A stretch of 61,254 nt of DNA, from positions 1-61,254 of the forward strand of contig JAQWQE010000010.1 of NCBI GenBank assembly GCA_029244925.1. The letters run 5' to 3'. A program made the position numbers and the translations under genes. The notes beneath the pieces were generated by a model, which saw nothing but the letters and a program-made list of their open reading frames with translations, did no database searches and was not told the DNA's origin. How positions within the stretch are numbered: position 1 is the first letter of the stretch; every line of letters begins with the position of its first letter. Shown in pieces: positions 1,005 through 57,437 of the stretch. This stretch comes from Gammaproteobacteria bacterium. GTDB taxonomy: Bacteria; Pseudomonadota; Gammaproteobacteria; Steroidobacterales; UBA11654.

Positions 1005-1706
1005 ATGAAATTATTTAAGAAACTAGGAACTTATTTTTCAATGCTAACGCTCTTACTGAGTGGTACAAGCTTAAAGTCTATTGCCTCAGAAGGCGAAGAA
1101 GGCTCTGAAGCATTTGATGATCCAAATGCAAACACAGAAGAAGAGGATTCTTCAGGCGAGTCTCAAGATGCTGCTGAAAGTAGCTCTACCTCGGGCTCAA
1201 ACGGATCTGCAGGTGCAGGTGCAGGAGTCTGGGTTGCTATAACAGGCGCTGTATTAGCTGTATTCAGCGGTGGATCTTCTGAGTTTATTACTCCTTCAGG
1301 AGGACCCCCTGTTGTTCCGCCAACGCCAACACCAACACCAACACCAACGCCAACGCCAACGCCTACACCAACGCCTACACCTACACCAACACCTGTTGTT
1401 GATACAACTGGTGCTCCTACAACTGAAGGCGCTATTACAACTGCTGGTATTACTACTACAGGCGCTGCAACAACTGAAGGTGCTGTTACAACTGAAGGTG
1501 CTGAAACTACAGGCGCTGCAACAACTGAAGGTGCTGTTACAACTGAAGGTGCTGTTACAACTGAAGGCGCTGTTACAACCGCTGGTATTACTACTACAGG
1601 CGCTGCAACAACTGAAGGCGCAACTACGACAGTAACAACTGGTACAACTGACATGGCTACTACTACAACGTCGACTACCAGTACAGCGACTAATACTGGA
1701 CAATAG
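1005..1706 (+). CDS. secreted Thr/Pro-rich low-complexity protein, YjbE/GfcA-like
   Basis: Signal peptide, Gly/Ala hydrophobic segment (GAGVWVAITGAVLAVFSGGS), long (PT)n tract, TTEGAV-type repeats, Thr/Ser C-terminus; immediately precedes a YjbH-like gene. Confidence 0.6.
   Translation: MKLFKKLGTYFSMLTLLLSGTSLKSIASEGEEGSEAFDDPNANTEEEDSSGESQDAAESSSTSGSNGSAGAGAGVWVAITGAVLAVFSGGSSEFITPSGGPPVVPPTPTPTPTPTPTPTPTPTPTPTPTPVVDTTGAPTTEGAITTAGITTTGAATTEGAVTTEGAETTGAATTEGAVTTEGAVTTEGAVTTAGITTTGAATTEGATTTVTTGTTDMATTTTSTTSTATNTGQ
1318..1393 (+). repeat. 6-nt periodic repeat encoding (Pro-Thr)n
   Basis: Tandem ccaacg/ccaaca/cctaca units read directly. Confidence 0.9.
1405..1650 (+). repeat. imperfect minisatellite encoding TTEGA(V/I/A) / TTAGITTTGA repeats
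   Basis: Repeated 'acaactgaaggtgctgtt'-type 18-nt units read directly. Confidence 0.85.
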
Positions 1707-14946: not shown

Positions 14947-16317
14947 TTGAACACAGATAAATTTTTAGTTTCTCGAGATGCTACATTGAGAAGTGCTCTT
15001 TCACTTATTGAGAATAATAATCATGGAATAATTCTTACTTTCGATTCTTCAAATAAAGTGACTGGACTGGTAACAGATGGAGACATTAGACGTTATTTAT
15101 TAAAGGAAGATACATCTCTTGATGATCCAATAAGCCTTTGTTCCAATAAAGATTTCTTGTGGGAAGACCCTTCTACATCTAGAGAATCACTTTTAAAAAA
15201 GCTTGATCATAGGATTAGAGTTTTACCGTTACTAGATAAGAACGGTAAACTAGTTGATATTGTAAGTAGAGATTATTTGCCAATTCAAGAAGAACAAGCT
15301 GTTTTTGCGAGAGCTAAATCACCCGTTAGAATAAGTTTTGGAGGCGGTGGATCTGATCTAACGCACTATTTTTCTGCTGATATTGGTGCTGTTATAAATA
15401 CAACTGTTTCAATCTATAGCCATGCTACATTGAGGATTAGACAGGATGAAGAAATTGTTATTAATTCATTGGATTTAAAGAAAAGTCTTACAGCCAAGAA
15501 TCTAAAAGATGCTCTCAAGCCACAGGAAAAATTTGGTTTAATTCAAGCTTTGCTCAAAACAATAAGTCCAGATTTTGGTTTTGAGCTGGATGTAAATTCT
15601 GACTTTCCTATAGGATCTGGGCTTGGAGGTTCAGCAGTTGTAGCTGCTGCTATATTGGGATGCTTTAATCAGTTTAGACAAGACAGATGGGATCATCATG
15701 AGCTAGCTGAACTCGCATATCAAGCTGAAAGACTTTACCACGGTATTGAGGGCGGTTGGCAAGATCAATATGCGACAGTTTTTGGGGGCTTTAATTTTAT
15801 GGAATTCAAAATGGATCAGAATGTTGTTCATCCCTTAAGAATTCATGACGATATCTTACTAGAATTAGAAGAAAGTTTGATTCTTTGTAATACAGGTATT
15901 TCTCATAACTCTGGCTCAATACATAAGAATCAGAGGCGTGAGATGAAACAGAAAGACATTAAAAAGCATGTTCAGGCAAATGTAGCATTATGCTTTGAAA
16001 TGAGAAATCAATTGTTGAGAGGGGAGTTATTGCGTTTTGGCAAGTCGCTTAATCAAGCATGGAATAATAAAAAGAAACTTAGTAGTGAAATTTCGAATAA
16101 TGATTTGGATTTAATGTATAAAAATGCTCTAAAACATGGTGCTATTGGCGGAAAGCTGCTTGGAGCAGGTGGAGGTGGTTTTTATATATTTTATACCCCA
16201 CCATCGTCGAAACATGAACTTATAGAGTTTCTAAATAAATCTAAATTGGAGATCAGGCCATTCAGATTTGAGAAAGAAGGCCTTAGGTCATGGACAGTCA
16301 GGGAATCTAAGAACTAA
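14947..16317 (+). CDS. CBS-domain pair fused to GHMP sugar kinase (HddA-like)
   Basis: N-term CBS pair (IILTFDSSNKVTGLVTDGDIRRYLL; RVLPLLDKNGKLVDIVSRDYLP); C-term PVRISFGGGGSDLTHYF, FPIGSGLGGSAVV, LGAGGGGFYIF. TTG start. Confidence 0.85.
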   Translation: MNTDKFLVSRDATLRSALSLIENNNHGIILTFDSSNKVTGLVTDGDIRRYLLKEDTSLDDPISLCSNKDFLWEDPSTSRESLLKKLDHRIRVLPLLDKNGKLVDIVSRDYLPIQEEQAVFARAKSPVRISFGGGGSDLTHYFSADIGAVINTTVSIYSHATLRIRQDEEIVINSLDLKKSLTAKNLKDALKPQEKFGLIQALLKTISPDFGFELDVNSDFPIGSGLGGSAVVAAAILGCFNQFRQDRWDHHELAELAYQAERLYHGIEGGWQDQYATVFGGFNFMEFKMDQNVVHPLRIHDDILLELEESLILCNTGISHNSGSIHKNQRREMKQKDIKKHVQANVALCFEMRNQLLRGELLRFGKSLNQAWNNKKKLSSEISNNDLDLMYKNALKHGAIGGKLLGAGGGGFYIFYTPPSSKHELIEFLNKSKLEIRPFRFEKEGLRSWTVRESKN

Positions 16318-16322
16318 CTAAA

Positions 16323-18221
16323 ATGAAAGATACTATCAAAATTGGTGATCATATTATTGGCTCTGGGAGAGCTTTCGTTATTGCTGAGATCGGTAATAAT
16401 CACAATGGCTCATTTGAAAAGGCAATCCAAATGATTGATCAAGCAGCAGAAATGCAAGCAGATTGTGTGAAGTTTCAAATGAGACATTTAGATCAATTAT
16501 ATCGAAAAAAATCTATAAAAAAATCTGGAGAAGATTTAGGCACAGAATATGTACTGGATCTATTAAGAAAGTTCGAGCTAACAGTCGGTGAGCAAGAAAA
16601 ATTATCAGATTATTGCAAAGAAAAGGGAATATTATATTTATGTACCCCATGGGATATTAAAAGTGCCAAGGTTTTAGAGACATTTAATGTACCTGCCTAT
16701 AAGGTTGCCTCCGCAGATTTAACCAACATACCCCTATTGGATTTTTTAGTAAAAACTAAGAAGCCCTTAATCCTATCAACAGGAATGAGTACTGGCGAAG
16801 AAGTTATATATACAGCAGATATGCTTACTAAGAAAGGAGCTGAATTTGTTTTATTGCATTGCAATAGCACTTATCCAGCCCCTCTCCATGATATTAATTT
16901 AAATTGGATGCATGAATTAAGAAAAATACACCCCCTAGTTGGATATTCTGGCCATGAAAGAGGGACAAATGTTACATTGGCAGCATCTACACTCGGCGCA
17001 TGCGTTATTGAAAGGCATTTCACTTTAGATAGGAATATGGAAGGACCAGACCATGCAGCAAGCTTAACTTTTGATGAGTTTCAGCCAATGATATCTGGAA
17101 TTAGAGAAATAGAGGAGAGTAAGGGAAATGGTGGGATAAGAGAATTATCCCAAGGTGAAATGATTAATAGGGAAAACTTAGGGAAAAGCTTAGTTGCCTC
17201 AAGAAATCTCAAGAAGGGTGATATTTTAGATGAGAATGATATTAAAGTGCTCAGCCCTGGGCAGGGATTGTCACCACAAAAATATAATGATTTATTAGGC
17301 CGGACTTTAAATCATAATATGGATGAAGAAGATTTCTTCTACCCCTCTGATCTTTCTGATCATTTAATAGAGCCAAGGGACTATAAATTTGATAGACCTT
17401 GGGGTGTCCCAGTCCGATACCATGATTTTAATGAATACAATAGAAAAATTAAACCTGATGTTTGGGAGTTTCACTTATCTTACTCTGATATGGAGCTGAA
17501 TTTATCAGATTATTTCAAGGAAGATTTTAAAGCAGATTTTGTTGTTCATGCGCCAGAGTTATTTTCTGGAAGCCATTTAATGGATTTAGCGACCCCTGAT
17601 AAATCTTATAGAGAGATATCCCTGAGAGAAACACAGAAAGTTATAGATATTACAAGAAAGCTAAAGAAATATTTTCCTCAAACAAAAAGACCAATGATAG
17701 TTGCTAACATCGGTGGATTCACTATGGACGCAACCTTGCCAGAAGAAATCATACCTAGTTATTATCAGCAATTCTCAGATAGCCTAAAGGAATTAGATTT
17801 GGAGGGTGTTGAATTAATTCCACAGACAATGGCTCCTTTCCCTTGGCATTTTGGAGGCCAGAGATATCAAAATATATTTGTGAGAATAGAAGAAATAATA
17901 GAATGGGCTGATAAGCTTGAATTAAGAATGTGTTTTGATGTTTCTCATACACAGTTAACATGTAATCACTATAAATTGGATTTTTATGACTTTGCTGAGA
18001 AGATAGCTCCCTATACAGCGCATCTGCATTTGGGAGATGCCAAAGGTCTCAATGGTGAAGGACTCCAAGTAGGTGAGGGTGAAATTGATTTTGACCATCT
18101 TGGTTCAATATTAAAGGAAGGCTGTCCTAGTGCTTCATTTATTCCAGAAATATGGCAAGGTCATAAGAACGGAGGAGAGGGTTTTTGGATAGCAATGGAA
18201 AAATTGGAGGGGAAAATTTGA
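16323..18221 (+). CDS. NeuB-family ulosonate synthase + SAF domain fused to xylose-isomerase-like TIM barrel
   Basis: FVIAEIGNNHNGS, KVASADLTNIPLLDFL, STGMSTGEEV, GYSGHERGTNVTLAASTLGACVIERHFTLDR; C-terminal AP_endonuc_2-like part (FVVHAPELFSG..., FDVSHTQLTCN..., HLHLGDAKG). Confidence 0.88.
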   Translation: MKDTIKIGDHIIGSGRAFVIAEIGNNHNGSFEKAIQMIDQAAEMQADCVKFQMRHLDQLYRKKSIKKSGEDLGTEYVLDLLRKFELTVGEQEKLSDYCKEKGILYLCTPWDIKSAKVLETFNVPAYKVASADLTNIPLLDFLVKTKKPLILSTGMSTGEEVIYTADMLTKKGAEFVLLHCNSTYPAPLHDINLNWMHELRKIHPLVGYSGHERGTNVTLAASTLGACVIERHFTLDRNMEGPDHAASLTFDEFQPMISGIREIEESKGNGGIRELSQGEMINRENLGKSLVASRNLKKGDILDENDIKVLSPGQGLSPQKYNDLLGRTLNHNMDEEDFFYPSDLSDHLIEPRDYKFDRPWGVPVRYHDFNEYNRKIKPDVWEFHLSYSDMELNLSDYFKEDFKADFVVHAPELFSGSHLMDLATPDKSYREISLRETQKVIDITRKLKKYFPQTKRPMIVANIGGFTMDATLPEEIIPSYYQQFSDSLKELDLEGVELIPQTMAPFPWHFGGQRYQNIFVRIEEIIEWADKLELRMCFDVSHTQLTCNHYKLDFYDFAEKIAPYTAHLHLGDAKGLNGEGLQVGEGEIDFDHLGSILKEGCPSASFIPEIWQGHKNGGEGFWIAMEKLEGKI

Positions 18222-18802
18222 TGTTTATAGAAAGAATTAAAAAAGATATTGAGGAATCTGCAGCAGTAAAAAACCTTATTCTCAATGATGCTCACACTAT
18301 AGGTTTGATTAATGAAATAGCTGAAGAATGTATCAATACTTTAAATAAAGGTGGCAAAGTTATTTTTTGTGGGAATGGAGGAAGTTTTGCGGATGCTCAG
18401 CATTTATCAGCAGAATTTACAGGAAAATACGCATTTGATCGAGGAGCACTGGCTTCTATTGCTCTAGGAACAAATAGTTCTTCTCTTTCAGCAATAGGAA
18501 ATGATTATGGTTATGAGAATGTTTTTTCTAGAGAAATTGAGGCAATTGCTAAATCAGAGGATATTTTGATTGGAATAACAACAAGCGGCAATAGTAAAAA
18601 TATTCTCAAGGCGGTTGAAGTGGCAAAGTCTATGAACATAGCGACCTATGTCTTTACGGGGAATTCAGGCGGAGAGATACAGTCAAAAGCCAAATGCCTA
18701 AACGTACCATCTGAAATAACAGCTAGAATTCAAGAATGTCATATTATGATCGGCCAAATTATTTGTGGAATAGTGGAAGCAGAACTTTTCAAAGAAAGCT
18801 AA
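18221..18802 (+). CDS. SIS-domain isomerase, phosphoheptose isomerase GmhA-like
   Basis: GKVIFCGNGGSFADAQHLSAEFTGKYAFDRGALASIALGTNSSSLSAIGNDYGYENVFSREI; ATG at 18221 with GGAGGGG SD preferred over the TTG at 18185. Confidence 0.87.
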   Translation: MFIERIKKDIEESAAVKNLILNDAHTIGLINEIAEECINTLNKGGKVIFCGNGGSFADAQHLSAEFTGKYAFDRGALASIALGTNSSSLSAIGNDYGYENVFSREIEAIAKSEDILIGITTSGNSKNILKAVEVAKSMNIATYVFTGNSGGEIQSKAKCLNVPSEITARIQECHIMIGQIICGIVEAELFKES

Positions 18803-18803
18803 T

Positions 18804-19532
18804 ATGAAAAATATTATTGCCGTTATTCCAGCTAGGTCGGGCTCAAAGGGTGTTCCCGATAAAAACATCAAAGAGATTCTGGGTAGGCCATTAATAGCTT
18901 ACTCTATTAAAGCGGCGCTGCAGTCAAAATTAATAGATAGGGTTATTGTTTCAACTAATTCTAGTATGTATGCCGATAAAGCTATTAGCTTTGGTGCGGA
19001 AGCTCCTTTTCTAAGACCTGAAGAAATATCTCAAGATGACTCAACAGATCTTGAGTTTTTCCAACACTTAATTTCTTGGATGAAAGAAAATGAAGATTAT
19101 ATTCCTGATTATTTTGTTCATTTAAGGCCAACAACACCATTAAGAGACCCAAAAATTATAGATGACGCAATATCTAGGTTTATTGATAGTAAATATTCAT
19201 CTTTAAGATCAGTTCATAAGATGAGTGAATCTGCATATAAGGCCTTTGAAATTGAGGATAAGGTTTTACATAGAATTTTCAACAAAGGGACGGACTTAGA
19301 TGAGAGTAATTATGCTAGGCAGTCCTATCCAAATACATACGATGCAAATGGATATGTTGATATTGTTCGGTCTAAGTTAATCCTTGAGAAGGATTTACTT
19401 CATGGCGACAATGTTCTTCCATATATCACAGAGTCTTCGAGCGAAATAGATGAAAAAGGCGATATTGAAAAAGTTCAATACATGTTAGAGAAAAATATTA
19501 ACAACATAAATGAGTTATTTAAAAATGTATGA
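18804..19532 (+). CDS. acylneuraminate cytidylyltransferase-family (CMP-sugar synthetase)
   Basis: IAVIPARSGSKGVPDKNIKEILGRPLIAYSIKAAL; HLRPTTPLRDPKIID. Confidence 0.88.
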   Translation: MKNIIAVIPARSGSKGVPDKNIKEILGRPLIAYSIKAALQSKLIDRVIVSTNSSMYADKAISFGAEAPFLRPEEISQDDSTDLEFFQHLISWMKENEDYIPDYFVHLRPTTPLRDPKIIDDAISRFIDSKYSSLRSVHKMSESAYKAFEIEDKVLHRIFNKGTDLDESNYARQSYPNTYDANGYVDIVRSKLILEKDLLHGDNVLPYITESSSEIDEKGDIEKVQYMLEKNINNINELFKNV

Positions 19533-20235
19533 TTATTCATGTCTGAAGGGGAAAACTGCATTTATAACCGGTGCAACTGGAGCGATTGGAGGAGAAATAG
19601 CTCAATCACTATCTAGTGCTGGTGTAGATTTATTAATTAACGGAACCAATCTGGAAAAATTACAGCAAATTAAAGATAAACTTACTACAAATGTGCATAT
19701 TCTTGATGGAGATATATCAGAGCAATCTGAGGTTGAGAGAATTCTAGATCAATCCATCTCATTAGGAAAAGTTGATATCCTGGTAAATTGTGCAGGCGTC
19801 TTCCCTCAAAAACCAATTAGTGAGTTGGATACTTCCGAGTACCAAAAATTAATGAATATAAATCTCAACGCTCCCTATTTTTTGTCTGTAGGCTTTTCGA
19901 AAGACATGATTAAAAATGGATGGGGTAGAATTGTAAATATTGGTTCCGCGTCATCCTATGGTGGTTATAAGAATACTGTGGCTTACTGCTCATCAAAGCA
20001 CGGTTTGTTAGGCATGAGTCTTGCAATGCATGATGAGCTTAAAGAGGATGGTGTTAGAGTATATTGTATTTCTCCATCATCAACTCAAGGTGATATGGGT
20101 CTTGCTACAAAAGGACAAGATTACTCAACATTTCTTGATCCAAAAGAGGTTGCTGAATATGTTCTTTTTGCTATTTCTCAGGATGGAAACGCTATGAGCC
20201 AAGAAATATTTATTAAGAGAATGCATCTAAGATAA
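19525..20235 (+). CDS. SDR-family oxidoreductase
   Basis: KTAFITGATGAIGGEIAQSLS; NCAG; YCSSKHG. ORF track start 19510; ATG at 19525 is an alternative. Confidence 0.82.
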   Translation: MYDYSCLKGKTAFITGATGAIGGEIAQSLSSAGVDLLINGTNLEKLQQIKDKLTTNVHILDGDISEQSEVERILDQSISLGKVDILVNCAGVFPQKPISELDTSEYQKLMNINLNAPYFLSVGFSKDMIKNGWGRIVNIGSASSYGGYKNTVAYCSSKHGLLGMSLAMHDELKEDGVRVYCISPSSTQGDMGLATKGQDYSTFLDPKEVAEYVLFAISQDGNAMSQEIFIKRMHLR

Positions 20236-20240
20236 GAGAT

Positions 20241-20675
20241 ATGATTATTAATCTTAGACATGTCGGTTTGGTAGTAACAGATCTAGAAAAAGCAAAAAAG
20301 TTTTGGTGCGAGCTTCTAGATTTTAAGGTTGAAAAAGAAATGGATGAATCTGGACCTCATATAGATTTAATGATGGGGTTGGAAAGCGTAAGTGTCACCA
20401 CAGCCAAGCTAAGAGCCCCAGATAACTCAATGCTAGAATTGCTTTATTTTAAGTCTCATCCAGATAAGCCTAATTGGGATGGCACCCCTTTTTCTACAGG
20501 CCTTACTCATATATCGTTGACCGTTAAGGATCTTTCGGGATCATATAAAACACTTTCAGAAGCAGGAGTAACTTTTCCTGCAGCGCCTCAGTATTCTCCA
20601 GATGGTTCAGTAAAAGTAATATATGCAAAAGGACCTGAAGGGATATTGTTAGAGTTAGTAGAGGAATTAAATTAA
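20241..20675 (+). CDS. VOC/glyoxalase-family protein
   Basis: LRHVGLVVTDLEKAKKFWCELLDFKVEKEMDESG...GLTHISLTVKDLSGSYKTL...IYAKGPEGILLELVEE. Confidence 0.85.
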   Translation: MIINLRHVGLVVTDLEKAKKFWCELLDFKVEKEMDESGPHIDLMMGLESVSVTTAKLRAPDNSMLELLYFKSHPDKPNWDGTPFSTGLTHISLTVKDLSGSYKTLSEAGVTFPAAPQYSPDGSVKVIYAKGPEGILLELVEELN

Positions 20676-20702
20676 ATAATAGAACAATTAATCCACTAGT
20701 TT

Positions 20703-21542
20703 ATGAATCATAAAATTGGCTTTATTCAGGGCAGACTTTCACCCATCGTCGACAACAAGATACAAGCTTTTCCATGGGGTAATTGGCAAGAGGAGTTCTC
20801 TTTGGCTGGAGAGAATAACTTTCAATTAATAGAATGGACATTAGATCAATCTGATCTTTATTTGAATCCTATAATGACAAATGAGGGACGCTCAGAAATA
20901 AAAAAACTTTCTTATAAACATAATGTGAGAATACCTTCCTTAACAGGCGATTGTTTTATGCAGTCACCATTTTGGAAAGCATCTGAATCTGAAAAAGCAG
21001 TTCTTGAGCAAGATTTTATAAATGTTTGTGACGCATCAGCTAAATTAGATATTTCTTTTATAGTAGTGCCTCTAGTTGATAATGGAACTATAGAGAATGA
21101 ATCTCAGGAAGATTACTTGGTTACTTTTTTAATGGATCATGCGTCTAAGTTTCAATTAAATAATCAGAAGATAATCTTTGAATCAGATTTTGACCCAGGA
21201 AGACTCCATGAATTTATTCAACGATTTGACTCAAGAAATTTTGGAATAAACTACGATGTAGGGAATAGTGCTGCTTTAGGTTATAACGTTGATGATGAAT
21301 TTAATGCTTATGGTAAAAACATTATGAATGTTCATATAAAAGACAGAAAATACAATGGTAACACCGTGCCCCTAGGTCAGGGGGACGCTAATTTTGATAA
21401 GGTTTTTAAAAACCTATCAAAGTTTTCTTATCAGGGAAACCTAATACTCCAGACTGCTCGAGCATTCGACGATAACCATATTGAACCACTTGTAAAGTAT
21501 AGAAACATGACAAAAGAATGGATGAATTGTTTTGCTCTATAA
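20703..21542 (+). CDS. sugar phosphate isomerase/epimerase (xylose isomerase-like TIM barrel)
   Basis: GFIQGRLSPIVDNKIQAFPWGNWQEEFSLA...; NYDVGNSAALG; NVHIKDRKYNG. Confidence 0.8.
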   Translation: MNHKIGFIQGRLSPIVDNKIQAFPWGNWQEEFSLAGENNFQLIEWTLDQSDLYLNPIMTNEGRSEIKKLSYKHNVRIPSLTGDCFMQSPFWKASESEKAVLEQDFINVCDASAKLDISFIVVPLVDNGTIENESQEDYLVTFLMDHASKFQLNNQKIIFESDFDPGRLHEFIQRFDSRNFGINYDVGNSAALGYNVDDEFNAYGKNIMNVHIKDRKYNGNTVPLGQGDANFDKVFKNLSKFSYQGNLILQTARAFDDNHIEPLVKYRNMTKEWMNCFAL

Positions 21543-21560
21543 GTATTGTATTATTAAGCT

Positions 21561-22316
21561 ATGGATTTAGAGCTCTCAGAAAAAATCGCATTTATATCTG
21601 GATCATCTCGGGGTATAGGTCTTGAGATTGCAAAGACCTTAAATAAAGAAGGTTGCACAGTAGTAATCAATGGAAGGAATCAGAAGAGTCTAGATAATGC
21701 ATTGGAAGAACTGCCAAATGCTACATCAATCTGTGCCGATATAACTAGCCACAAAGAGTCAAAGAAGGTAATTTCAGAATTAATAGATCGATTTGGAAGG
21801 CTAGATATACTAGTCTGCAACGTGGGCAATGGCAGTTCAGCAAAACCAGGAACCGAAGAATATCAAGACTGGGAAAGATCTTTTTCTGAGAACTTTTGGA
21901 GTGTAACTAATCTTGTGGAAGCATCTCGTAGAAATCTTTCAGAAACGAAAGGATCAATAGTATGTGTTTCGTCAATATGTGGAAACGAACTTATAACTGG
22001 TGCTCCATTAACCTACTCGGCTGCTAAAGCAGCTCTAAATTCCTATGTTAATGGTGTTTCAAGACCATTAGGAGAAATGGGTATTAGGATTAATGCAGTA
22101 GCTCCTGGTAATATTTTATTTAATGGCTCAGTATGGGATCGAAAGATCACTGAGAACAAAAAAGAAGTTGAAGAATTTCTAAAAAAAGAGGTTCCTCTTA
22201 AAAAATTAGGTTCAACGAAGGACATCTCAAACCTAGTTGCTTATTTAGCCTCTCCTATCTCAAGCTTTGTAACGGGAAGTGTTTGGACAGCAGATGGGGG
22301 CCAAACAAGATCTTGA
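21561..22316 (+). CDS. SDR-family oxidoreductase
   Basis: IAFISGSSRGIGLEIAKTLNKEG; YSAAKAALNSYVNGV; SSFVTGSVWTADGGQTRS. Confidence 0.85.
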   Translation: MDLELSEKIAFISGSSRGIGLEIAKTLNKEGCTVVINGRNQKSLDNALEELPNATSICADITSHKESKKVISELIDRFGRLDILVCNVGNGSSAKPGTEEYQDWERSFSENFWSVTNLVEASRRNLSETKGSIVCVSSICGNELITGAPLTYSAAKAALNSYVNGVSRPLGEMGIRINAVAPGNILFNGSVWDRKITENKKEVEEFLKKEVPLKKLGSTKDISNLVAYLASPISSFVTGSVWTADGGQTRS

Positions 22317-22340
22317 TTATATTTTATTCAATAAAACTAA

Positions 22341-23174
22341 ATGACATCAGAAAAATTTAATCTAGCTGGAAAACATGCGATTATCACTGGCGGTGCAGGC
22401 TTGTTAGGTATAGAACATGCATCTGCATTACTAGAATCAAATGCCACGGTAATTATTACTGACATATCTGAATCTCTTCTATCAAAAGCCAGAGAAAAAT
22501 TAGAGGTTAACTTTAACCCAGAAAAGATTATTACCTTTAAGATGGATGTCACAGATCTTGGGGAAATTAGAGCAGTAGTAAATCAAATTGAAGATCTAAA
22601 TATCAGAGTAGATATTTTGGTTAATAATGCAGCGATAGATCCTAAAGTAATTGATGATGGTAATATTGTTGAATCTTCGAGATTAGAGAATTTTTCCTTA
22701 GATAACTGGAATACTCAGATAAACGTCGGGCTCACAGGAGCATTTCTTGCTAGTCAAAACTTTGGGTCTTTAATGGCAAGGGATAAAAAAGGTGGAGTTA
22801 TACTCAATATTGCTTCTGATCTTTCTGTCATTTCACCAGATCAGAGAATTTACAGGAAGGAAGGTATAGAAGATAAAATTCAGCCTGTTAAGCCTATTAC
22901 CTATTCAGTTATTAAATCTGGTTTAGTTGGCATGACGCTTTATCTTGCTACATATTGGTCAGATCTGAATATAAGATCAAATGCTCTATCACCAGGAGGT
23001 ATATATAATGAGCATGATGATGAATTTGTTACAAAACTCAGCTCATTAATTCCACTTGGCAGAATGGCCAATAGAGATGAATATCGCTCAGCAATACAGT
23101 TTCTTTGTTCAGATGCATCATCATATATGAATGGTCAAAATATAATAATGGATGGAGGAAGGTCCATCTGGTAA
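22341..23174 (+). CDS. SDR-family oxidoreductase
   Basis: HAIITGGAGLLGIEHASALLE; YSVIKSGLVGMTLYLATYW; YMNGQNIIMDGGRSIW. Confidence 0.85.
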   Translation: MTSEKFNLAGKHAIITGGAGLLGIEHASALLESNATVIITDISESLLSKAREKLEVNFNPEKIITFKMDVTDLGEIRAVVNQIEDLNIRVDILVNNAAIDPKVIDDGNIVESSRLENFSLDNWNTQINVGLTGAFLASQNFGSLMARDKKGGVILNIASDLSVISPDQRIYRKEGIEDKIQPVKPITYSVIKSGLVGMTLYLATYWSDLNIRSNALSPGGIYNEHDDEFVTKLSSLIPLGRMANRDEYRSAIQFLCSDASSYMNGQNIIMDGGRSIW

Positions 23175-23249: not shown

Positions 23250-25226
23250 ATGTGCGGTTTAACCGGTTTTATCAACTTTGATATATCTTCATCTAATGAG
23301 TTAGAGAGGATTATATCTTCAATGACCTCTAGTCTGATTCATAGGGGGCCCGATGATTTTGGTGTATGGTTAGATCCTGAATCAGAAATAGCTTTAGGTC
23401 ATAGAAGATTATCCGTTCTTGATTTATCAAAGGCAGGCCATCAGCCGATGCAATCTATAGATTCCAGATATACCATCGCTTTTAATGGCGAGATTTATAA
23501 TCATTTAGAATTGAGAAAGGAATTAGAGAAAAGCAATAGAGAAACTTCTAAATGGGTCGGTACATCTGATACTGAAACTCTCCTAGCTGCTATTGCAGAA
23601 TGGGGAATTGAAGCCACCCTAAAATCTTTGGTTGGTATGTTTGCAATGGCGGTGTGGGATAAGAAACATAAAACTTTGACTTTAGCTAGAGATCGATTTG
23701 GAGAGAAGCCTCTATACTATGGATTGGTTAACAATAGTTTTGTTTTTGGGTCTGAGTTAAAAGCAATTAAAAATTTTCCTGGATTTACTAACCCTATCTC
23801 TCGAGAAGCATTGTCAGATTACCTACGATTTTTATATGTCCCATCACCAAAAAGTATCTATGAAGATATATATAAATTAGAACCAGGATCATTCTTGGTA
23901 GTCAAAGCGACTAAAAACGATTTTAAAAATTATAAAAGCAATAAATATTGGTCATTTGGTGATCAAATAAGAGCAGGTAACCAGGATCAGTTTTATGATG
24001 AAAGTGAAGCAATAAGTTCTCTTGAATTAGCTTTAAATCAGTCAATAAGATCACAAATGCTATCAGATGTACCGCTCGGTGCTTTTTTAAGTGGCGGTAT
24101 CGATTCATCTTTGATTGTAGCTTTAATGCAAAACCAAGCATCATCGGCTATCAAGACTTTTACCGTTGCGTTTGAAGAGTCACAATTTGATGAATCACCC
24201 TTTGCTTCAGAAGTCGCAAATCATTTAGGGACAGATCACTACGAGATGCATGTTTCATCATTAGATGCTAGGAATGTAATAACTGAACTACCTGAAATAT
24301 ATGACGAACCTTTTGCTGATTCTTCACAAATTCCAACATTTTTAATTGCTGCACATGCAAGAAAAGAAGTCACAGTATCTCTTTCTGGTGACGCAGGAGA
24401 TGAGCTTTTCGGTGGGTATAATCGATATTTCTGGGCACCTAGAATATGGAATAAAGTCTCTTGGATGCCTTATTATCTAAGAAACATTTTTGCTGCTAAT
24501 TTGGGGAATGTTTCTGAGAATAATTGGGAGAGAACGCAAACATTTATTAATAGTGTGCAAAAGGGATTGAAAGGTATAGATCGCTTGGGTGAAAAAGCAC
24601 ATAAATTAAGTGAAACACTCGTAAATGTTAGAAGTATTGAGGATTTATATTTTAATTTGCTCAGTGTTCATCATGATCCAGCGAAAGTCGTTATTGACAC
24701 AACAGATTATGATTATTCTATTAATGATTTGTCTGGAGTCTCTCCAAAAGATTTAGGTATCAAGGATAGTCCTTCAAGAATGATGTATTGGGATGTTCTT
24801 AATTATTTGCCAGATGATATTCTATGTAAAGTAGATAGAGCTGCTATGGCAAATAGTCTGGAAACACGCATTCCTTTTCTAGACCCAGGCGTTGTAGATG
24901 TTTCACTTAGGCTGCCTTTAAATATGAAAATTAGAGATAATGAAGGCAAATGGGCACTAAGGCAAATTCTCTACAAACATGTGCCAAAAGAATTAATCGA
25001 GAGACCAAAAACAGGTTTTAGTATTCCTCTTGGTTTATGGCTAAGAGGCCCACTTCGAGATTGGGCAGAATCACTATTAGATGAGCAGAGATTAAGAGAT
25101 GAGGGATATTTTTACCCCGATATGGTGAGAAAATTATGGTTAGAACATATTAATGGAAAGAAAGATTGGGGCACTAAGCTATGGAGCATCTTAATGTTTC
25201 AATCTTGGTATGAAGCTAATAACTAA
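23250..25226 (+). CDS. asnB: asparagine synthase (glutamine-hydrolysing)-like amidotransferase
   Basis: MCGLTGFINFD (Cys2 amidotransferase), RGPDDFG, FNGEIYNHLELR, SGGIDSSLIVAL. Confidence 0.92.
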   Translation: MCGLTGFINFDISSSNELERIISSMTSSLIHRGPDDFGVWLDPESEIALGHRRLSVLDLSKAGHQPMQSIDSRYTIAFNGEIYNHLELRKELEKSNRETSKWVGTSDTETLLAAIAEWGIEATLKSLVGMFAMAVWDKKHKTLTLARDRFGEKPLYYGLVNNSFVFGSELKAIKNFPGFTNPISREALSDYLRFLYVPSPKSIYEDIYKLEPGSFLVVKATKNDFKNYKSNKYWSFGDQIRAGNQDQFYDESEAISSLELALNQSIRSQMLSDVPLGAFLSGGIDSSLIVALMQNQASSAIKTFTVAFEESQFDESPFASEVANHLGTDHYEMHVSSLDARNVITELPEIYDEPFADSSQIPTFLIAAHARKEVTVSLSGDAGDELFGGYNRYFWAPRIWNKVSWMPYYLRNIFAANLGNVSENNWERTQTFINSVQKGLKGIDRLGEKAHKLSETLVNVRSIEDLYFNLLSVHHDPAKVVIDTTDYDYSINDLSGVSPKDLGIKDSPSRMMYWDVLNYLPDDILCKVDRAAMANSLETRIPFLDPGVVDVSLRLPLNMKIRDNEGKWALRQILYKHVPKELIERPKTGFSIPLGLWLRGPLRDWAESLLDEQRLRDEGYFYPDMVRKLWLEHINGKKDWGTKLWSILMFQSWYEANN

Positions 25227-30363: not shown

Positions 30364-31950
30364 ATGAGAGGCTTCATGCAATTAATAAGTCAGATTTCAC
30401 AAAAAATCAAAACATTTGGCTATCTTTTTTCTTTGAGTGATGCCGATAAGAAATTTATAAAATTTTCAAAAAAACAATGGAGAAAAAATAAATATGATGA
30501 CACTGATGGAGAGCTACTAGTTGATCAAATGTTTTATGATCTATATATTTTTCAATTATCTTATATAACTAACTTTTTTCTTGAAAAGTATAATATTGCT
30601 CCTAAACATTTCCACTTTATCTCAAGAGAAAAGATTTTCTTAAGAATATTCTTTCAGTTTTTTAGACGTTTTTCTAGAGTAGATAAACTGTATACATCAT
30701 TTAACTGTAAATTTTCTTTAGGACAAAAATACTATAAAAAATCTATCCAAATAGCTGAAGAACTTGAATTTAAGTCAAAAGAAGAGTTATTAAACTTTAC
30801 ATATGAAGGAGTCAAATTAGGTGACTTAGTTTATGATACTTATCTCAGGATGTATCTTGAACCAACGGTTGATCTAGCAGACAAAAGACTAAAGAATGTT
30901 TTAATTAATGCTCTAGATATCTACTTTACTTCCAAAGAATATCTTAATAATAATGATGTAAAGAAAATAGTTCTAAGCCATGCAGTTTACATTCAGTATG
31001 CAATTCTTGGCAGAATAGGCTTGTCTCTTGGCATAGATGTATACATCTTTTCTTGGGAAAGAGTAGTGCATAAACTGACATCTGATCACCTTGTACCGAC
31101 ACCAAGACATCTAGAATATAAAGAAATATTTGAAAAGAAATCTAATAAGTCAGATCATAAGAATCAATCTAGAAAAATATTGAATGATAGACTCAATGGG
31201 CAAATAGACAGAGGTATTGCATATATGAAAACATCACCATATGCTGATACATCAGATCCAAATCAAAAAATATTTCTCAACAATGGTAAGCCTAAAGTAG
31301 CTTTGATGATGCATTGTTTCTATGACGCACCACACATATATAAAAATATGATCTTTGAAGATTTTTTTGAGTGGATTGAATTTGTTTTTTCAAGGGTAGA
31401 AAAAATGGATGTTGATTTCGTAGTGAAACCACACCCTAATGCTCAACCTTTAAATAATGAAATCATTGAAAATTTTAAGAAAAAATATCCAAATATTCGT
31501 TTCTTAGATAAAAATACCTCAAATAAAAAAATAATTGCAGAAGGAATTGATCTGCTACTAACTGTTTACGGAACAGTGGGACATGAATTCGCATATCATG
31601 ATGTTAAAGTTCTTATGGCTGGTGATAACCCTACCGCCGCTTATAATTTTTCATTGCTTCCATCTTCAAAAGACCAATATGAATATTATTTAATGAATAT
31701 AGACCAGATAGAATTAGAGATTAATAAAAAAGATATTGAAGAGTTTTTTTATATGCACTATCTAAACATAGGTGAGGGTAGAATAGAGGGAAACAATGAT
31801 TTATTTTTTGTTAGAAAGCGTGATTATGATCCGTCTAATAAAGATATGTTTATTGAGCTCATAGATGATGCGTCTTCAAAGAAATTTGATTGTATATTTG
31901 ATTCATTCTCTAAGGCAATAGAGCAGGTTGATTCTAGAACAACAGATTAA
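30364..31950 (+). CDS. putative surface-carbohydrate biosynthesis protein (capsule GT-like)
   Basis: 528 aa; C-terminal VDFVVKPHPNAQPLN...LLLTVYGTVGHEFAYHDVKVLMAGDNP resembles GT-B capsule transferases. Confidence 0.6.
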   Translation: MRGFMQLISQISQKIKTFGYLFSLSDADKKFIKFSKKQWRKNKYDDTDGELLVDQMFYDLYIFQLSYITNFFLEKYNIAPKHFHFISREKIFLRIFFQFFRRFSRVDKLYTSFNCKFSLGQKYYKKSIQIAEELEFKSKEELLNFTYEGVKLGDLVYDTYLRMYLEPTVDLADKRLKNVLINALDIYFTSKEYLNNNDVKKIVLSHAVYIQYAILGRIGLSLGIDVYIFSWERVVHKLTSDHLVPTPRHLEYKEIFEKKSNKSDHKNQSRKILNDRLNGQIDRGIAYMKTSPYADTSDPNQKIFLNNGKPKVALMMHCFYDAPHIYKNMIFEDFFEWIEFVFSRVEKMDVDFVVKPHPNAQPLNNEIIENFKKKYPNIRFLDKNTSNKKIIAEGIDLLLTVYGTVGHEFAYHDVKVLMAGDNPTAAYNFSLLPSSKDQYEYYLMNIDQIELEINKKDIEEFFYMHYLNIGEGRIEGNNDLFFVRKRDYDPSNKDMFIELIDDASSKKFDCIFDSFSKAIEQVDSRTTD

Positions 31951-31971: not shown

Positions 31972-33036
31972 ATGAATCACAAAGTAAATAGTCCTGTATT
32001 CATTACAGGTGTTTATAGAAGCGGTACCACAATTCTCACCGGTATTCTTGGTGCGCATGAGGAACTTGATATAAGCCATCCTTCTGTTCAATATTTTAGA
32101 TACATCTTAAAAAAGAATATTTCTCCTCATGATTACAAAGAAATTGTTCATTCTGTATCAGAGAGAGTGAATTTAAGATATGGCATTAAGCTAAATATAG
32201 AGAGAATAATTAGTGATATTAATGTGGGAATCTCTATAGAAGGAATTTGTCATAAAATAATTTACGATTCTATTATGAGATCACTTTATTTGAATAGCGG
32301 TAAGAGGTGGGGTGAGAAAAGCTTATTAGAGTGGACAAATATTCCGACATTTCTAGAAATGTTTCCAAAAGGAAAAACTATACACATTATAAGGGATCCT
32401 AGAGATGTCTTGGCCTCCTATAAAAATATGACATATGAAACAGGCGATAAGTATTTAGATGCTGTATTTAATTGCTTAGACTCAATGCAACATGCAAAAA
32501 AATATATCTCTAGCCTTCCCAAAGAACAATATTGTTTAGTATATTTCGAAGATCTTATTTCTAATAGAATTAGAGAAGTAGAACGGATATGTTCTTTTCT
32601 AGAAATAGGATTTGATAAATCATTATATAAAGAGGATAAAATAAAAGAAGGTGTTGGAGAAGGTTCTGTGAATTTAACTACAGCTAGCCATTCTTCTTTC
32701 CCTGAAGATATTGGGAATTCATTCAAAAGATGGGATACAAAACTTTCGAAAAACGAAATTTCTTTTACTGAGTCAATTTTATCTACAATGATGAGTGAAT
32801 TTGAATATGAACTTTCTCAATCATCTAAAAATAATCATATAGCATGGCTTGAGAAAATTATGAGTGATAATGCATTGATCAAAAAAAGATTCATAAATTT
32901 TCTTAAGACTGGCAAAGGCGTAGAGGAATTCCCCAGCGACCCCACAGATCCAAAAAATTGGTCAACTTCAACAAAAGAGCAAGGAAAGGTTCAAGGTAAA
33001 GGAGCTGCAGCTGCTTACAAGAAACTAAATACTTAA
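31972..33036 (+). CDS. sulfotransferase-family protein
   Basis: VFITGVYRSGTTILTGILGAHEEL (PAPS 5'-phosphosulfate loop) and IHIIRDPRDVLASYKNM. Confidence 0.85.
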   Translation: MNHKVNSPVFITGVYRSGTTILTGILGAHEELDISHPSVQYFRYILKKNISPHDYKEIVHSVSERVNLRYGIKLNIERIISDINVGISIEGICHKIIYDSIMRSLYLNSGKRWGEKSLLEWTNIPTFLEMFPKGKTIHIIRDPRDVLASYKNMTYETGDKYLDAVFNCLDSMQHAKKYISSLPKEQYCLVYFEDLISNRIREVERICSFLEIGFDKSLYKEDKIKEGVGEGSVNLTTASHSSFPEDIGNSFKRWDTKLSKNEISFTESILSTMMSEFEYELSQSSKNNHIAWLEKIMSDNALIKKRFINFLKTGKGVEEFPSDPTDPKNWSTSTKEQGKVQGKGAAAAYKKLNT

Positions 33037-48350: not shown

Positions 48351-49490
48351 CTATGAATTTATTAAGTCTAGATATTGAGTTAAAATCTTCTCAATTTTAA
48401 ATCTTTCTTCAACGATTGCTCTTGATCGATGACTAAAATACTCGAGTTTTTCTTTATTATTGATAATTTTTTCTACAGCTACAATAATAGAGCTCTCTGA
48501 CTTAGGTTCAATTAAATAACCGTTTTTATTATTTTCTATAATTGACTTACAGCCTGGGACATTAGACATAATTAATGGCATTCCTGTTGCAGCAGCCTCT
48601 AACGCAACAGACGGTAGCCCCTCTCTATATGAGGGAAGTATAAATACATCATACTCTTTGAATAAAGCTGGCATTTCATTATTTTGAATGAAGCCTAGAT
48701 AATTCATTTCTTTGCATTCTTTCATAGCATTAAATTCAGATCTTTCAATTGATAGTTTATTAGTCGGATCAAATTCACCAGCAATATAGAATGACGTTTC
48801 CGGATATCTCTTTTTTAAAACTTTTGATGCGTTTATAAATTCAAGAATACCTTTTTCTTTTTGAAGTTTTGATGCAAATAAAAATTTTATTTCTTGGTTT
48901 AGATTTTTTATAAATCTTTCATGGAAGCTAAATTTATTAGTATCAATGCCATTACCTTCAATAATGGATGACTTTATTTGATTATTCATAATCAAAAGCT
49001 TTAGATCTGTTCGATCATCGATATTTTGAAAGACAAATTTATTTTTTGGACTCAGTAAGAATCGAAATACTATCTTGTATAGAAATTTTTTAAGCTTTCC
49101 TTTCAAGGAATTTGCATTAGAAAATGATCCTAGCCCAGTGACAAGAAAAAAATTATTTTTTGTATCAATATATCTAGATAGTATTGCACCAATGAAACAA
49201 TTTTCTAAAGAAACAAAAAATATATAATCAGGATCAACTCTGTCGATTTTATTTTTTAATTGCTGAATAAAAGTAAAAAATTTTAGAGGATTAATTGTGG
49301 GTGTCCTTTTAGAGGAATGGGTGAACTTGATATTTGAGTTAGTCCCAATATCTGTTTTTAGACCTCTCAAATCAGAGAGGTCAGTAATTATCTCAATATC
49401 GTAATAACTAGATAATAAATTAATTAAATGATATCGATGCGATTTAAAAAAAGCATATTCATTAATAATAAATGCTAGTTTAGATCTCAT
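48351..49490 (-). CDS. glycosyltransferase family 4
   Basis: FASKLQKEKGILEFINASKVL; LPSYREGLPSVALEAAATGMPLIMSNVPGCKSII. Confidence 0.87.
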   Translation of the reverse strand: MRSKLAFIINEYAFFKSHRYHLINLLSSYYDIEIITDLSDLRGLKTDIGTNSNIKFTHSSKRTPTINPLKFFTFIQQLKNKIDRVDPDYIFFVSLENCFIGAILSRYIDTKNNFFLVTGLGSFSNANSLKGKLKKFLYKIVFRFLLSPKNKFVFQNIDDRTDLKLLIMNNQIKSSIIEGNGIDTNKFSFHERFIKNLNQEIKFLFASKLQKEKGILEFINASKVLKKRYPETSFYIAGEFDPTNKLSIERSEFNAMKECKEMNYLGFIQNNEMPALFKEYDVFILPSYREGLPSVALEAAATGMPLIMSNVPGCKSIIENNKNGYLIEPKSESSIIVAVEKIINNKEKLEYFSHRSRAIVEERFKIEKILTQYLDLINS

Positions 49491-51385
49491 AGAGTTGATT
49501 TGAGAGTATTATCAATATTTATATGTTTTTCATGCCAGCAAATAAATTGGACTAAGGAAAAAAGCTTTTCTCCATTATGAGCACCCTTTTTTTGTTCAGC
49601 TAGCATATTGAGAGCATATTCTTTATTTATCTCAATATCCTCAAAGGATGAAATTTTATCGTGAAAATAATCATGCCAATGACCCTTAATTAATAGATTA
49701 TTAATTGGTATAGAGAAACCCTGTTTTCTCTGTAAGTCAAATTCGGAGGGCAAGATTTTTTTTGCAAGAGCTTTTAATAAAATTTTCTTTTTTTGCCCAT
49801 GAACCTTAAGTTTTGATGGGACTTCTGTAAACGCAAAATTAATAATCCTACTATCTAGGAATGGAGATCTTATTTCTAGTGAATGCGCCATGCTAGCACG
49901 ATCAATTTTTACTAAGATATCTTCAGACATAAAATTTTGGAAATCATGAGCTGTCATTCTCGTCACAAAATCATTTTCTGAAATATCTTTCTCATTTTTT
50001 AGAAAATCTATATTTTTTAGAAATCTAGATTGGTTCATAAGCAAATGATTTCTCTGATCTAAATCAAACATTAAAGATGTGGAGAAATCTAAGTTATTCA
50101 AATCCTGCCCAAATAACTCGATTGTTTTTCTACCTCTTAAATTAAGAGGTAATATTTTTAATATATTTTTTGTAGCATATTTCCTAATAGTGAATGGTAT
50201 AAATTTACTCAAATTGTTTAATAGAAGTATTCTGCTGTAATGATTATAACCACCAAAAAGCTCATCTCCGCCATCTCCTCCAATGGCCACTTTGCAAAAA
50301 TTACTCATTTCTTTGCAAAGAATATATGTTGGAATCATTGAAGAATCAGTCATTGGCTCATCAAAGAAGTATACTAGTTTCTCTATGATTTCTGGCTCTA
50401 TAGAGTTTGCCTCTAATTCGTGATGGTTAGTATTAAAATTTTTTGAAATTAATTTTGCATATTTCTGTTCATTAAAAATTTTATTATCAGGAAAGATGAC
50501 TGTATAAGTATCAAGGTTTTTTTTAAATCTAGAGGCAATTGCTACCATAAGGCTTGAATCTACTCCTCCACTTAACATCATGCCTAGCGGAGCATCTGAA
50601 ATTAATCTTTGCCTGACTGATGCTTCCAACAATTGTTCTAATTTATTGGTTAGTACTATTTCTGAGGAATTCTTTTGGGATTCTAATTTCCTGGTAATAA
50701 GTTTATTAAGATCCCAAAATTTATCTTTTTTTAATTTACCTGTTTCAGTATTGAAAATTAGATACTCTCCAGGAATCAATTTATTAATATTTAAATATAT
50801 TGATTCTTCTCTTGGTATATATCCATTTCCAAGATAGTGATTGAAGGCATTTATATTCATTTCTTTTGAGTCTTCAATCGATTCAACAAGTGGTTTTAGT
50901 TCACTCGCATAAGCTATCAAACCTTCTTTTGTATAGTAATATAAAGGCTTTTCTCCTGCTCTATCTCTTGCCAGAATAAGCTTCTTATTTTTTTTATCTA
51001 TAAGAGCAAATGCAAACATGCCTTCAAGTCTCTGTAAGCAGTTCTCTCCCCATTCAATATATGAATTCAACAAAACTTCTGTATCAGATCTTGACTTAAA
51101 TTCATGACCAAGATTAATCAATTCCTTTTTGAGCTCTAGATGATTATATATTTCTCCATTGAAAACTATTCCGAATTCCTCAGAAGAGCTAAACATTGGT
51201 TGATTACCAGATGCACTCAAGTCTATTATTGAAAGCCTAGTAAAGCCCATGAAATGTTTTTCATCAGCACTTAGCCAGTAATCATTATGATCTGGCCCTC
51301 TATGATTAAGTAGCTTTATGTTCTTACGAAATCTTTCAGTATTGAAAGATACCTTTTGAGATGAGAAGCCAAGTATTCCACACAT
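49487..51385 (-). CDS. asnB: asparagine synthase (glutamine-hydrolysing)-like amidotransferase, second copy
   Basis: MCGILGFSSQ; NHRGPDHNDYW; FNGEIYNHLELKKEL; SGGVDSSLMVAIA. Confidence 0.92.
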   Translation of the reverse strand: MCGILGFSSQKVSFNTERFRKNIKLLNHRGPDHNDYWLSADEKHFMGFTRLSIIDLSASGNQPMFSSSEEFGIVFNGEIYNHLELKKELINLGHEFKSRSDTEVLLNSYIEWGENCLQRLEGMFAFALIDKKNKKLILARDRAGEKPLYYYTKEGLIAYASELKPLVESIEDSKEMNINAFNHYLGNGYIPREESIYLNINKLIPGEYLIFNTETGKLKKDKFWDLNKLITRKLESQKNSSEIVLTNKLEQLLEASVRQRLISDAPLGMMLSGGVDSSLMVAIASRFKKNLDTYTVIFPDNKIFNEQKYAKLISKNFNTNHHELEANSIEPEIIEKLVYFFDEPMTDSSMIPTYILCKEMSNFCKVAIGGDGGDELFGGYNHYSRILLLNNLSKFIPFTIRKYATKNILKILPLNLRGRKTIELFGQDLNNLDFSTSLMFDLDQRNHLLMNQSRFLKNIDFLKNEKDISENDFVTRMTAHDFQNFMSEDILVKIDRASMAHSLEIRSPFLDSRIINFAFTEVPSKLKVHGQKKKILLKALAKKILPSEFDLQRKQGFSIPINNLLIKGHWHDYFHDKISSFEDIEINKEYALNMLAEQKKGAHNGEKLFSLVQFICWHEKHINIDNTLKSTL

Positions 51386-56624: not shown

Positions 56625-57437
56625 ATGAAAAAAAGTATTTGTTTAGTTTCTGGTGGTTTTGATCCCTTACATAGGGGTCATATCGAATATTTTAAAGCTG
56701 CAAAAAGATTATCTGACTATCTTATAGTGGCATTGAATTCTGACGATTGGCTGTCTCAGAAAAAGGGGTATGCTTTTATGCCATGGGAAGAAAGAGCCAG
56801 CATTATAAAAAACTTAGAGATAGTAGATGAGGTTATTGCCTTTGACGATGAAGATATGTCAGCTTCTGATGCTATTGAGAAGAGTCTAGCGATTGCTGAA
56901 TTAGTTATATTTGCTAATGGCGGTGATAGAGGGAAAACCAATTGTCCTGAACTTGATCGTTATGAAGGCAATGAAAGAGTTAAGTGGGAATTTGGAGTTG
57001 GTGGTACCAAAAAAATTAATAGCAGTTCTTGGCTTATTAATGATTTTATAGAGCAATATAATGAAGCTAATTTACCAAAAGGGTTTTCTGATATAACAAA
57101 TATTTCATCACCTTGGGGCAAAAATATTTCTTTTCTTGATGATAAAGGGTTCAAGGTTAAGCAACTCATAGTTAATCCTGATAGTAAGCTTAGTTTGCAA
57201 AAGCATAAACATAGAGCAGAACACTGGATAGTTGTTAGAGGAGTAGCAACGATAGAGATTGATGAAAAAAAATTTACTTTACAAACTGGAGAGTACACTT
57301 ATATACCTTTAGGCTCCAAGCATCGTTTGTCTAATGAGCATAATGAGGATTTGATCATTATTGAAGTCCAGTGTGGAGAGATTCTAGAGGAATCTGATAT
57401 CATTCGCTATGATGATAGCTATGGTAGATTAGAGTGA
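56625..57437 (+). CDS. nucleotidyltransferase (HldE/TagD-like) fused to mannose-6-phosphate isomerase type II-like cupin
   Basis: N-term LVSGGFDPLHRGHIEYFKAAKRL; C-term SSPWGKNISFLDDKGFKVKQLIVNPDSKLSLQKHKHRAEHWIVVRGVATI...YIPLGSKHRLSN. Confidence 0.82.
   Translation: MKKSICLVSGGFDPLHRGHIEYFKAAKRLSDYLIVALNSDDWLSQKKGYAFMPWEERASIIKNLEIVDEVIAFDDEDMSASDAIEKSLAIAELVIFANGGDRGKTNCPELDRYEGNERVKWEFGVGGTKKINSSSWLINDFIEQYNEANLPKGFSDITNISSPWGKNISFLDDKGFKVKQLIVNPDSKLSLQKHKHRAEHWIVVRGVATIEIDEKKFTLQTGEYTYIPLGSKHRLSNEHNEDLIIIEVQCGEILEESDIIRYDDSYGRLE

Follow-up and report, generated by a model that had tools for sequence, protein, structure and literature searches.

The 61,254-nt stretch analyzed here (the window; contig JAQWQE010000010.1 of GCA_029244925.1, Gammaproteobacteria bacterium, UBA11654) contains at positions 14947–23174 a module of nine open reading frames (ORFs), all on the + strand and nearly gapless. 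By its gene content, the module is genuine and coherent, and it appears to represent a form of the NeuB/NeuA pathways for ulosonates that is tied to heptose metabolism and has apparently not been described before. Its central gene encodes a NeuB-family synthase fused to a triosephosphate isomerase (TIM) barrel (NeuB-TIM), and the gene set around it is, as judged from its distribution, a distinct and horizontally mobile cassette of at least seven phyla. With a probability of about 0.5, this cassette specifies a pathway for a cytidine monophosphate (CMP)-activated 2-keto-3-deoxy (ulosonic) acid derived from a heptose. An initial annotation, made from the sequence of the window, had listed nine contiguous genes with the same domains, and both the ORF coordinates and searches of the nine proteins with Pfam and NCBIfam profiles at family cut-offs agreed with it; as also stated there, the module lacked a NeuC-type epimerase and the early enzymes of pseudaminic and legionaminic acid synthesis, with no NeuC/LegG, 4,6-dehydratase or DegT in 14947–23174.

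The synthase (16323–18221, +) comprises NeuB, SAF and AP_endonuc_2 domains, corresponding to a putative phosphoenolpyruvate (PEP)-dependent ulosonate synthase whose C-terminal TIM barrel resembles ketose 3-epimerases. The NeuB part matched PF03102 with 274 bits, with SAF present, but NeuB-TIM scored 326.1 bits against TIGR03569 (NeuB_NnaB) and 238.2 bits against TIGR03586 (PseI), below the respective equivalog cut-offs of 399.65 and 340.25. In a NeuB-domain tree, the 18 NeuB-TIM carriers included clustered in a single clade (support 100/100), which is set off by a long stem from the NnaB- and PseI-type proteins. The two missed cut-offs and the separate clade support the view that NeuB-TIM is not a standard sialic, legionaminic or pseudaminic acid synthase. 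The fold matched 1xuu and 8h2c, and an alignment of 52 NeuB-TIM sequences gave a mean column identity of 74%. Residues for PEP and metal binding and catalysis were retained (E22, K50, Q52, Y184, H211, E230, H232 and D243), while N74, N184, F288 and R314 of Neisseria meningitidis NeuB were replaced by L, S, N and S, the last of these (Ser311) being invariant in 52/52 sequences. Arg314 places the N-acetyl group of N-acetylmannosamine in sialic acid synthase, the R314A variant is inactive, and the meningococcal enzyme rejects mannose as an acceptor (PMC6795526). The loss of this N-acetyl-contacting residue would therefore fit an acceptor without an N-acyl group at C2. The Ser314/Asn288 pair was also seen in congeners at L108:9393-11804 and in L092, where a NeuB without TIM forms the C-terminal part of a fusion of about 803 aa whose front part is an FAD protein resembling UDP-galactopyranose mutase; NeuA and a PtmA-like short-chain dehydrogenase/reductase (SDR) are among its neighbors.

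The AlphaFold model was confident for both the whole of NeuB-TIM (pLDDT 91) and the TIM half alone (pLDDT 86). A fold search with the TIM half returned D-tagatose 3-epimerase-like proteins first (3wqo, UlaE), and its metal-site residues E497, D539, H569 and E609 were kept. As endonuclease IV ranked lower than these ketose 3-epimerases, an endonuclease IV-like phosphoesterase was considered for this half and not preferred.

The gene neighborhoods carry the link to heptose. A scan of GTDB genomes gave 292 NeuB-TIM relatives, the best 80 of which were retrieved as loci, many of them from metagenome-assembled genomes. The same gene set recurred across these 80 loci, which argues that the arrangement of the module is not due to chance. 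The neighborhood counts refer to loci with enough flanking sequence, and those for HddC, GmhA, GmhB, the CTP-transferase and the aminotransferase exclude Bradyrhizobium. In 76/76 loci, the gene directly 5′ of NeuB-TIM encoded an HddA-type kinase, most often overlapping it or separated by hardly any sequence; this kinase gene was itself directly preceded by an HddC-type nucleotidyltransferase in 33 of 42 loci (HddC-like, as the scores fell below the strict cut-off of 300). GmhA was present in 22/32 loci and GmhB in 14/25, along with a CTP-transferase (31/32) and an aminotransferase (27/32). In Bradyrhizobium, GmhA is encoded outside the cluster, and a single ORF of about 410–430 aa, sharing a contig with NeuB-TIM, combines HddC and GmhB; an example at L105:4696-5907 (- strand) has 403 aa. 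Bradyrhizose (C10), considered as a product because Bradyrhizobium carries the cassette, was dropped as it is not an ulosonate; its genes have been tentatively placed in a different cluster, one that includes a dTDP-glucose dehydratase (PMC4743980). Across relatives, the heptose link of the gene set is well supported by gene content, and the heptose-type connection suggested in the initial annotation is borne out by the recurrence of HddC, HddA, GmhA and GmhB and by the constant kinase–NeuB-TIM pairing.

In the module, the kinase (14947–16317, +) combines CBS and GHMP domains and an HddA signature GGWQDQYATVFGGFNFMEF. Its best NCBIfam family was HddA (NF049969; 255.8 bits, strict cut-off 600), and the nearest solved structures were Campylobacter jejuni HddA (4n3o) and the heptose kinases 3k85 and 4usk. 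In a control set of 369 gammaproteobacterial genomes, 15 other HddA-like kinases were found, all without CBS and 31–37% identical, and 8 of 9 CBS-less HddA genes inspected adjoined GmhA without NeuB, so that NeuB-TIM looks like an insertion into a GDP-heptose operon. In nearly every locus the CBS domain is part of the kinase, but in a SAR116 locus the order is HddC, CBS-less HddA and CBS-NeuB-TIM, and on the Ensifer plasmid pT173e the domain is again on NeuB-TIM. Such swapping between kinase and synthase suggests that both act in one pathway under shared control. It is also hard to square with two unrelated sugars being made from one operon, where the heptose genes would provide a GDP-heptose residue and NeuB-TIM with NeuA a nonulosonate from another, hexose-derived acceptor. 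GDP-heptose is an ordinary capsule precursor (PMC10680097) and parts of the heptose set are absent from some loci, but the invariable HddA–NeuB-TIM adjacency speaks against this division and no gene for a hexose-derived acceptor (dehydratase, NeuC or PseG) is conserved in the cassette, making it unlikely.

The start codon of the isomerase gene (18221–18802, +; SIS domain) is most likely ATG 18221, which overlaps the stop codon of NeuB-TIM, and not TTG 18185. The protein scored 180 bits against TIGR00441 (GmhA; cut-off 209), and its closest solved relatives were heptose enzymes; like HddA, it is nearest to the C. jejuni and Burkholderia pseudomallei enzymes. A KDN-type synthesis, in which NeuB-TIM would take mannose or mannose-6-phosphate (C6) to give a C9 KDN-like acid and the HddA- and GmhA-like proteins would act on hexose phosphates, is consistent with the loss of Arg314, which fits a sugar with a hydroxyl group at C2, and with the use of mannose-6-phosphate by human sialic acid synthase (PMC6795526). 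The Ensifer copy, whose 1.9 Mb replicon lacks HddA and which has a ManC-like gene nearby, leaves room for such a mannose variant. As an account of the cassette it is nevertheless rather doubtful, given that HddC-, HddA-, GmhB- and GmhA-type proteins recur together and that the solved structures nearest to the GmhA and HddA proteins are of heptose enzymes.

NeuB acceptors need a manno configuration at C2, and manno-configured aldoses are the usual acceptors. The product of GmhA is such an aldose, and GmhA, HddA, GmhB and HddC lead to GDP-heptose in a step order known from C. jejuni (PMC10680097). In the heptose-based pathway proposed here, GmhA would convert sedoheptulose-7-phosphate to D-glycero-D-manno-heptose-7-phosphate, which would dispense with a 2-epimerase and explain the absent NeuC. 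The CBS-controlled HddA kinase, helped by GmhB and HddC in relatives, would supply a GDP-manno-heptose pool, and the TIM half of NeuB-TIM may release or isomerize the aldose. After this and a putative dephosphorylation step, the NeuB half would condense the predicted acceptor, D-glycero-D-manno-heptose, with PEP; the product predicted with good reason is a C10 3-deoxy-ulosonate, a one-carbon homologue of KDN.

The remaining five genes of the module other than the CTP-transferase probably act on this product. They encode SDR1 (19510–20235, +; SDR), whose position is held by an aminotransferase in many relatives, a VOC/glyoxalase-fold protein and possible epimerase (20241–20675, +; VOC), the stand-alone epimerase/isomerase-like TIM2 (20703–21542, +; AP_endonuc_2), SDR2 (21561–22316, +; SDR) and the PtmA-like SDR3 (22341–23174, +; SDR; PtmA-like with 104 bits), the last being present in 28/32 non-Bradyrhizobium and 29/29 Bradyrhizobium loci. 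TIM2 retains the metal residues E160, D185 and H211, but the fourth position is Gln (Q250) in 60/63 sequences, which raises the possibility that its activity is not that of a classical epimerase. The downstream genes are exchangeable across loci: CTP-transferases come in three kinds and aminotransferases in class III, class IV or DegT forms, alongside VOC, methyltransferase, TIM2, and Gfo/Idh or SDR2, as well as SDR1 in the window. This suggests that the free ulosonate is modified before CMP activation: in the window, the SDRs, TIM2 and VOC would oxidize, epimerize and re-reduce it, and relatives may aminate or methylate it instead. The NeuA/PseF-like CMP-ulosonate synthetase (18804–19532, +; CTP_transf_3; 138 bits against PseF, cut-off 206) would then form the CMP-sugar for a surface glycan. 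In L022:7931-9817 and six further loci, SDR3 is directly followed by a transferase of the LIC12162 family (TIGR04331), a candidate for the ulosonyl transfer in the loci carrying it. A 528-aa protein of the window (30364–31950) was considered for this role and rejected, as it had no family match and was unrelated to the LIC12162-type proteins.

Several observations weigh against the heptose-based pathway. No hydrolase freeing the heptose from GDP or phosphate was identified, and TIM barrels of this kind mostly epimerize and seldom hydrolyze. The exchange of Arg314 for Ser does not by itself prove the identity of the acceptor. Bradyrhizobium sp. dw_78 had no GmhA match, and the HddA-less Ensifer copy described above belongs here as well. 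In the host genome (1.58 Mb, 79% complete) neither HddC nor GmhB was found, the best matches being a PtmE-like protein and a HisB-like ORF, and the Zn-site equivalent of GmhA His183 is Gln179 in the host and in L001, a relative with 95% identity. These last two points would also be expected if the module had partly decayed in this host, with HddC lost, GmhA impaired and little or no product made. The Gln was confined to the host/L001 lineage among about 35 relatives, and the isomerase retains H61, E65, Q171 and H174. E65 and Q171 correspond to Glu68 and Gln175, which have been proposed as acid and base in B. pseudomallei GmhA (PMC7705670), so the substitution may have changed the activity without abolishing it. 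With all nine frames open, the kinase, synthase, isomerase and CMP-transferase genes kept in L001 and the host genome incomplete, decay seems improbable.

The host genome also holds a second cluster on contig C32 (L101:242-12554), with another NeuB, a NeuC/LegG homologue, DegT, a NeuD-like acyltransferase, a CBS-nucleotidyltransferase, NeuA and a PtmA-like SDR; the PtmE-like protein mentioned above is encoded there too. Gfo/Idh, AroB-like and 2-hydroxyacid dehydrogenase genes in the same cluster are unusual company for nonulosonate synthesis. The module could in principle belong to an ordinary legionaminate or sialate pathway whose missing enzymes (NeuC/LegG, DegT, PtmE-like protein and acyltransferase) are supplied by C32. 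This is very improbable, as C32 has its own NeuA and its own NeuB, which at 465 bits exceeds the NnaB cut-off of 399.65, NeuB-TIM forms a clade of its own and has an altered acyl pocket, and many phyla carry the cassette with heptose genes instead. By its gene content, C32 is a self-contained and complete legionaminate-type cluster, so that the module does not look like a broken standard pathway completed elsewhere. The initial annotation had named a NeuB grouping with known synthases, together with a NeuC elsewhere, as the pattern that would speak for a standard product; what was found is a separate clade and a NeuC that belongs to the C32 legionaminate-type cluster.

The 18 NeuB-TIM carriers in the tree spanned seven phyla, with the Cyanobium protein grouping with those of Rhodobacterales and Oxalobacteraceae, and carriers included Bradyrhizobium, Cyanobium, Chlorobium, SAR86, SAR116 and Ensifer. 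The full fusion was found in 0/58 searched relatives of the host, and a CBS-HddA kinase in only 3/397 other Pseudomonadota genomes sampled, all three adjoining NeuB-TIM. This patchy occurrence points to horizontal transfer of the cassette. L001 is labeled Flavobacteriales but is probably mis-binned. Among phage and plasmid collections, there was one plasmid carrier of the full fusion and no phage. The plasmid, Ensifer canadensis pT173e (1.9 Mb), is listed in PLSDB with one annotated feature only, and the CBS-NeuB-TIM gene is unannotated there. The reading of the initial annotation stands as regards the heptose link, but the wide spread and mobility, the missing HddC and the altered GmhA had escaped it, as had the point that a manno-heptose acceptor would make a 2-epimerase unnecessary.

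The cassette shares with the sialic and legionaminic acid pathways (NeuB/LegI, NeuA/LegF, NeuC/LegG) a NeuB-fold PEP-condensing synthase with SAF, a CMP-transferase and a PtmA-like SDR, but differs in the absence of NeuC/LegG, dehydratase and N-acyl genes, the Ser at position 314, the C-terminal TIM and the heptose genes. All four enzyme types of the GDP-manno-heptose pathway occur around NeuB-TIM in relatives, but the kinase of the cassette includes a CBS domain, and an ulosonate synthase and a CMP-transferase are coupled to it. With KDN biosynthesis (mannose or mannose-6-phosphate plus PEP) it would share the condensation of an unacylated manno-aldose with PEP, the predicted acceptor being one carbon longer and accompanied by heptose enzymes. 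In the formation of 8-amino-Kdo by KdnA and KdnB, the free ulosonate is oxidized and then transaminated before CMP activation. The variable downstream genes of the cassette suggest the same order, but with other enzyme families (class III/IV aminotransferases, SDRs) and another synthase. To our knowledge, the CMP-activated ulosonates known from bacteria have either eight carbons (C8, Kdo) or nine (C9, sialic-type), and one based on a heptose would extend this range by a further chain length. It would also account for an unassigned gene set of Bradyrhizobium, Cyanobium, Chlorobium, SAR86 and others, and alter the “sialic acid” annotation of NeuB matches in environmental genomes. NeuB-TIM and C10 ulosonates are apparently undescribed, with none found in open-access literature text, and cultured carriers of the gene set exist, among them Chlorobium phaeovibrioides BrKhr17 and Cyanobium CV13-4-11.

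The module is set in a surface-polysaccharide locus with an EpsG-type polymerase, a PglK-like ABC exporter and genes for dTDP-rhamnose and GDP-fucose. This locus also encodes two asparagine-synthase-like amidotransferases (23250–25226 and 49487–51385) and a sulfotransferase (31972–33036), which suggests possible amidation and sulfation of the glycan. Adjoining Gmd/Fcl, an RfaE domain II-like nucleotidyltransferase is fused to a mannose-6-phosphate isomerase cupin (56625–57437) and is a possible stand-in for ManC or HddC. Near the start of the window (1005–1706), a small protein with a signal-like N terminus continues with an extended (PT)n tract and with TTxGA-type repeats.

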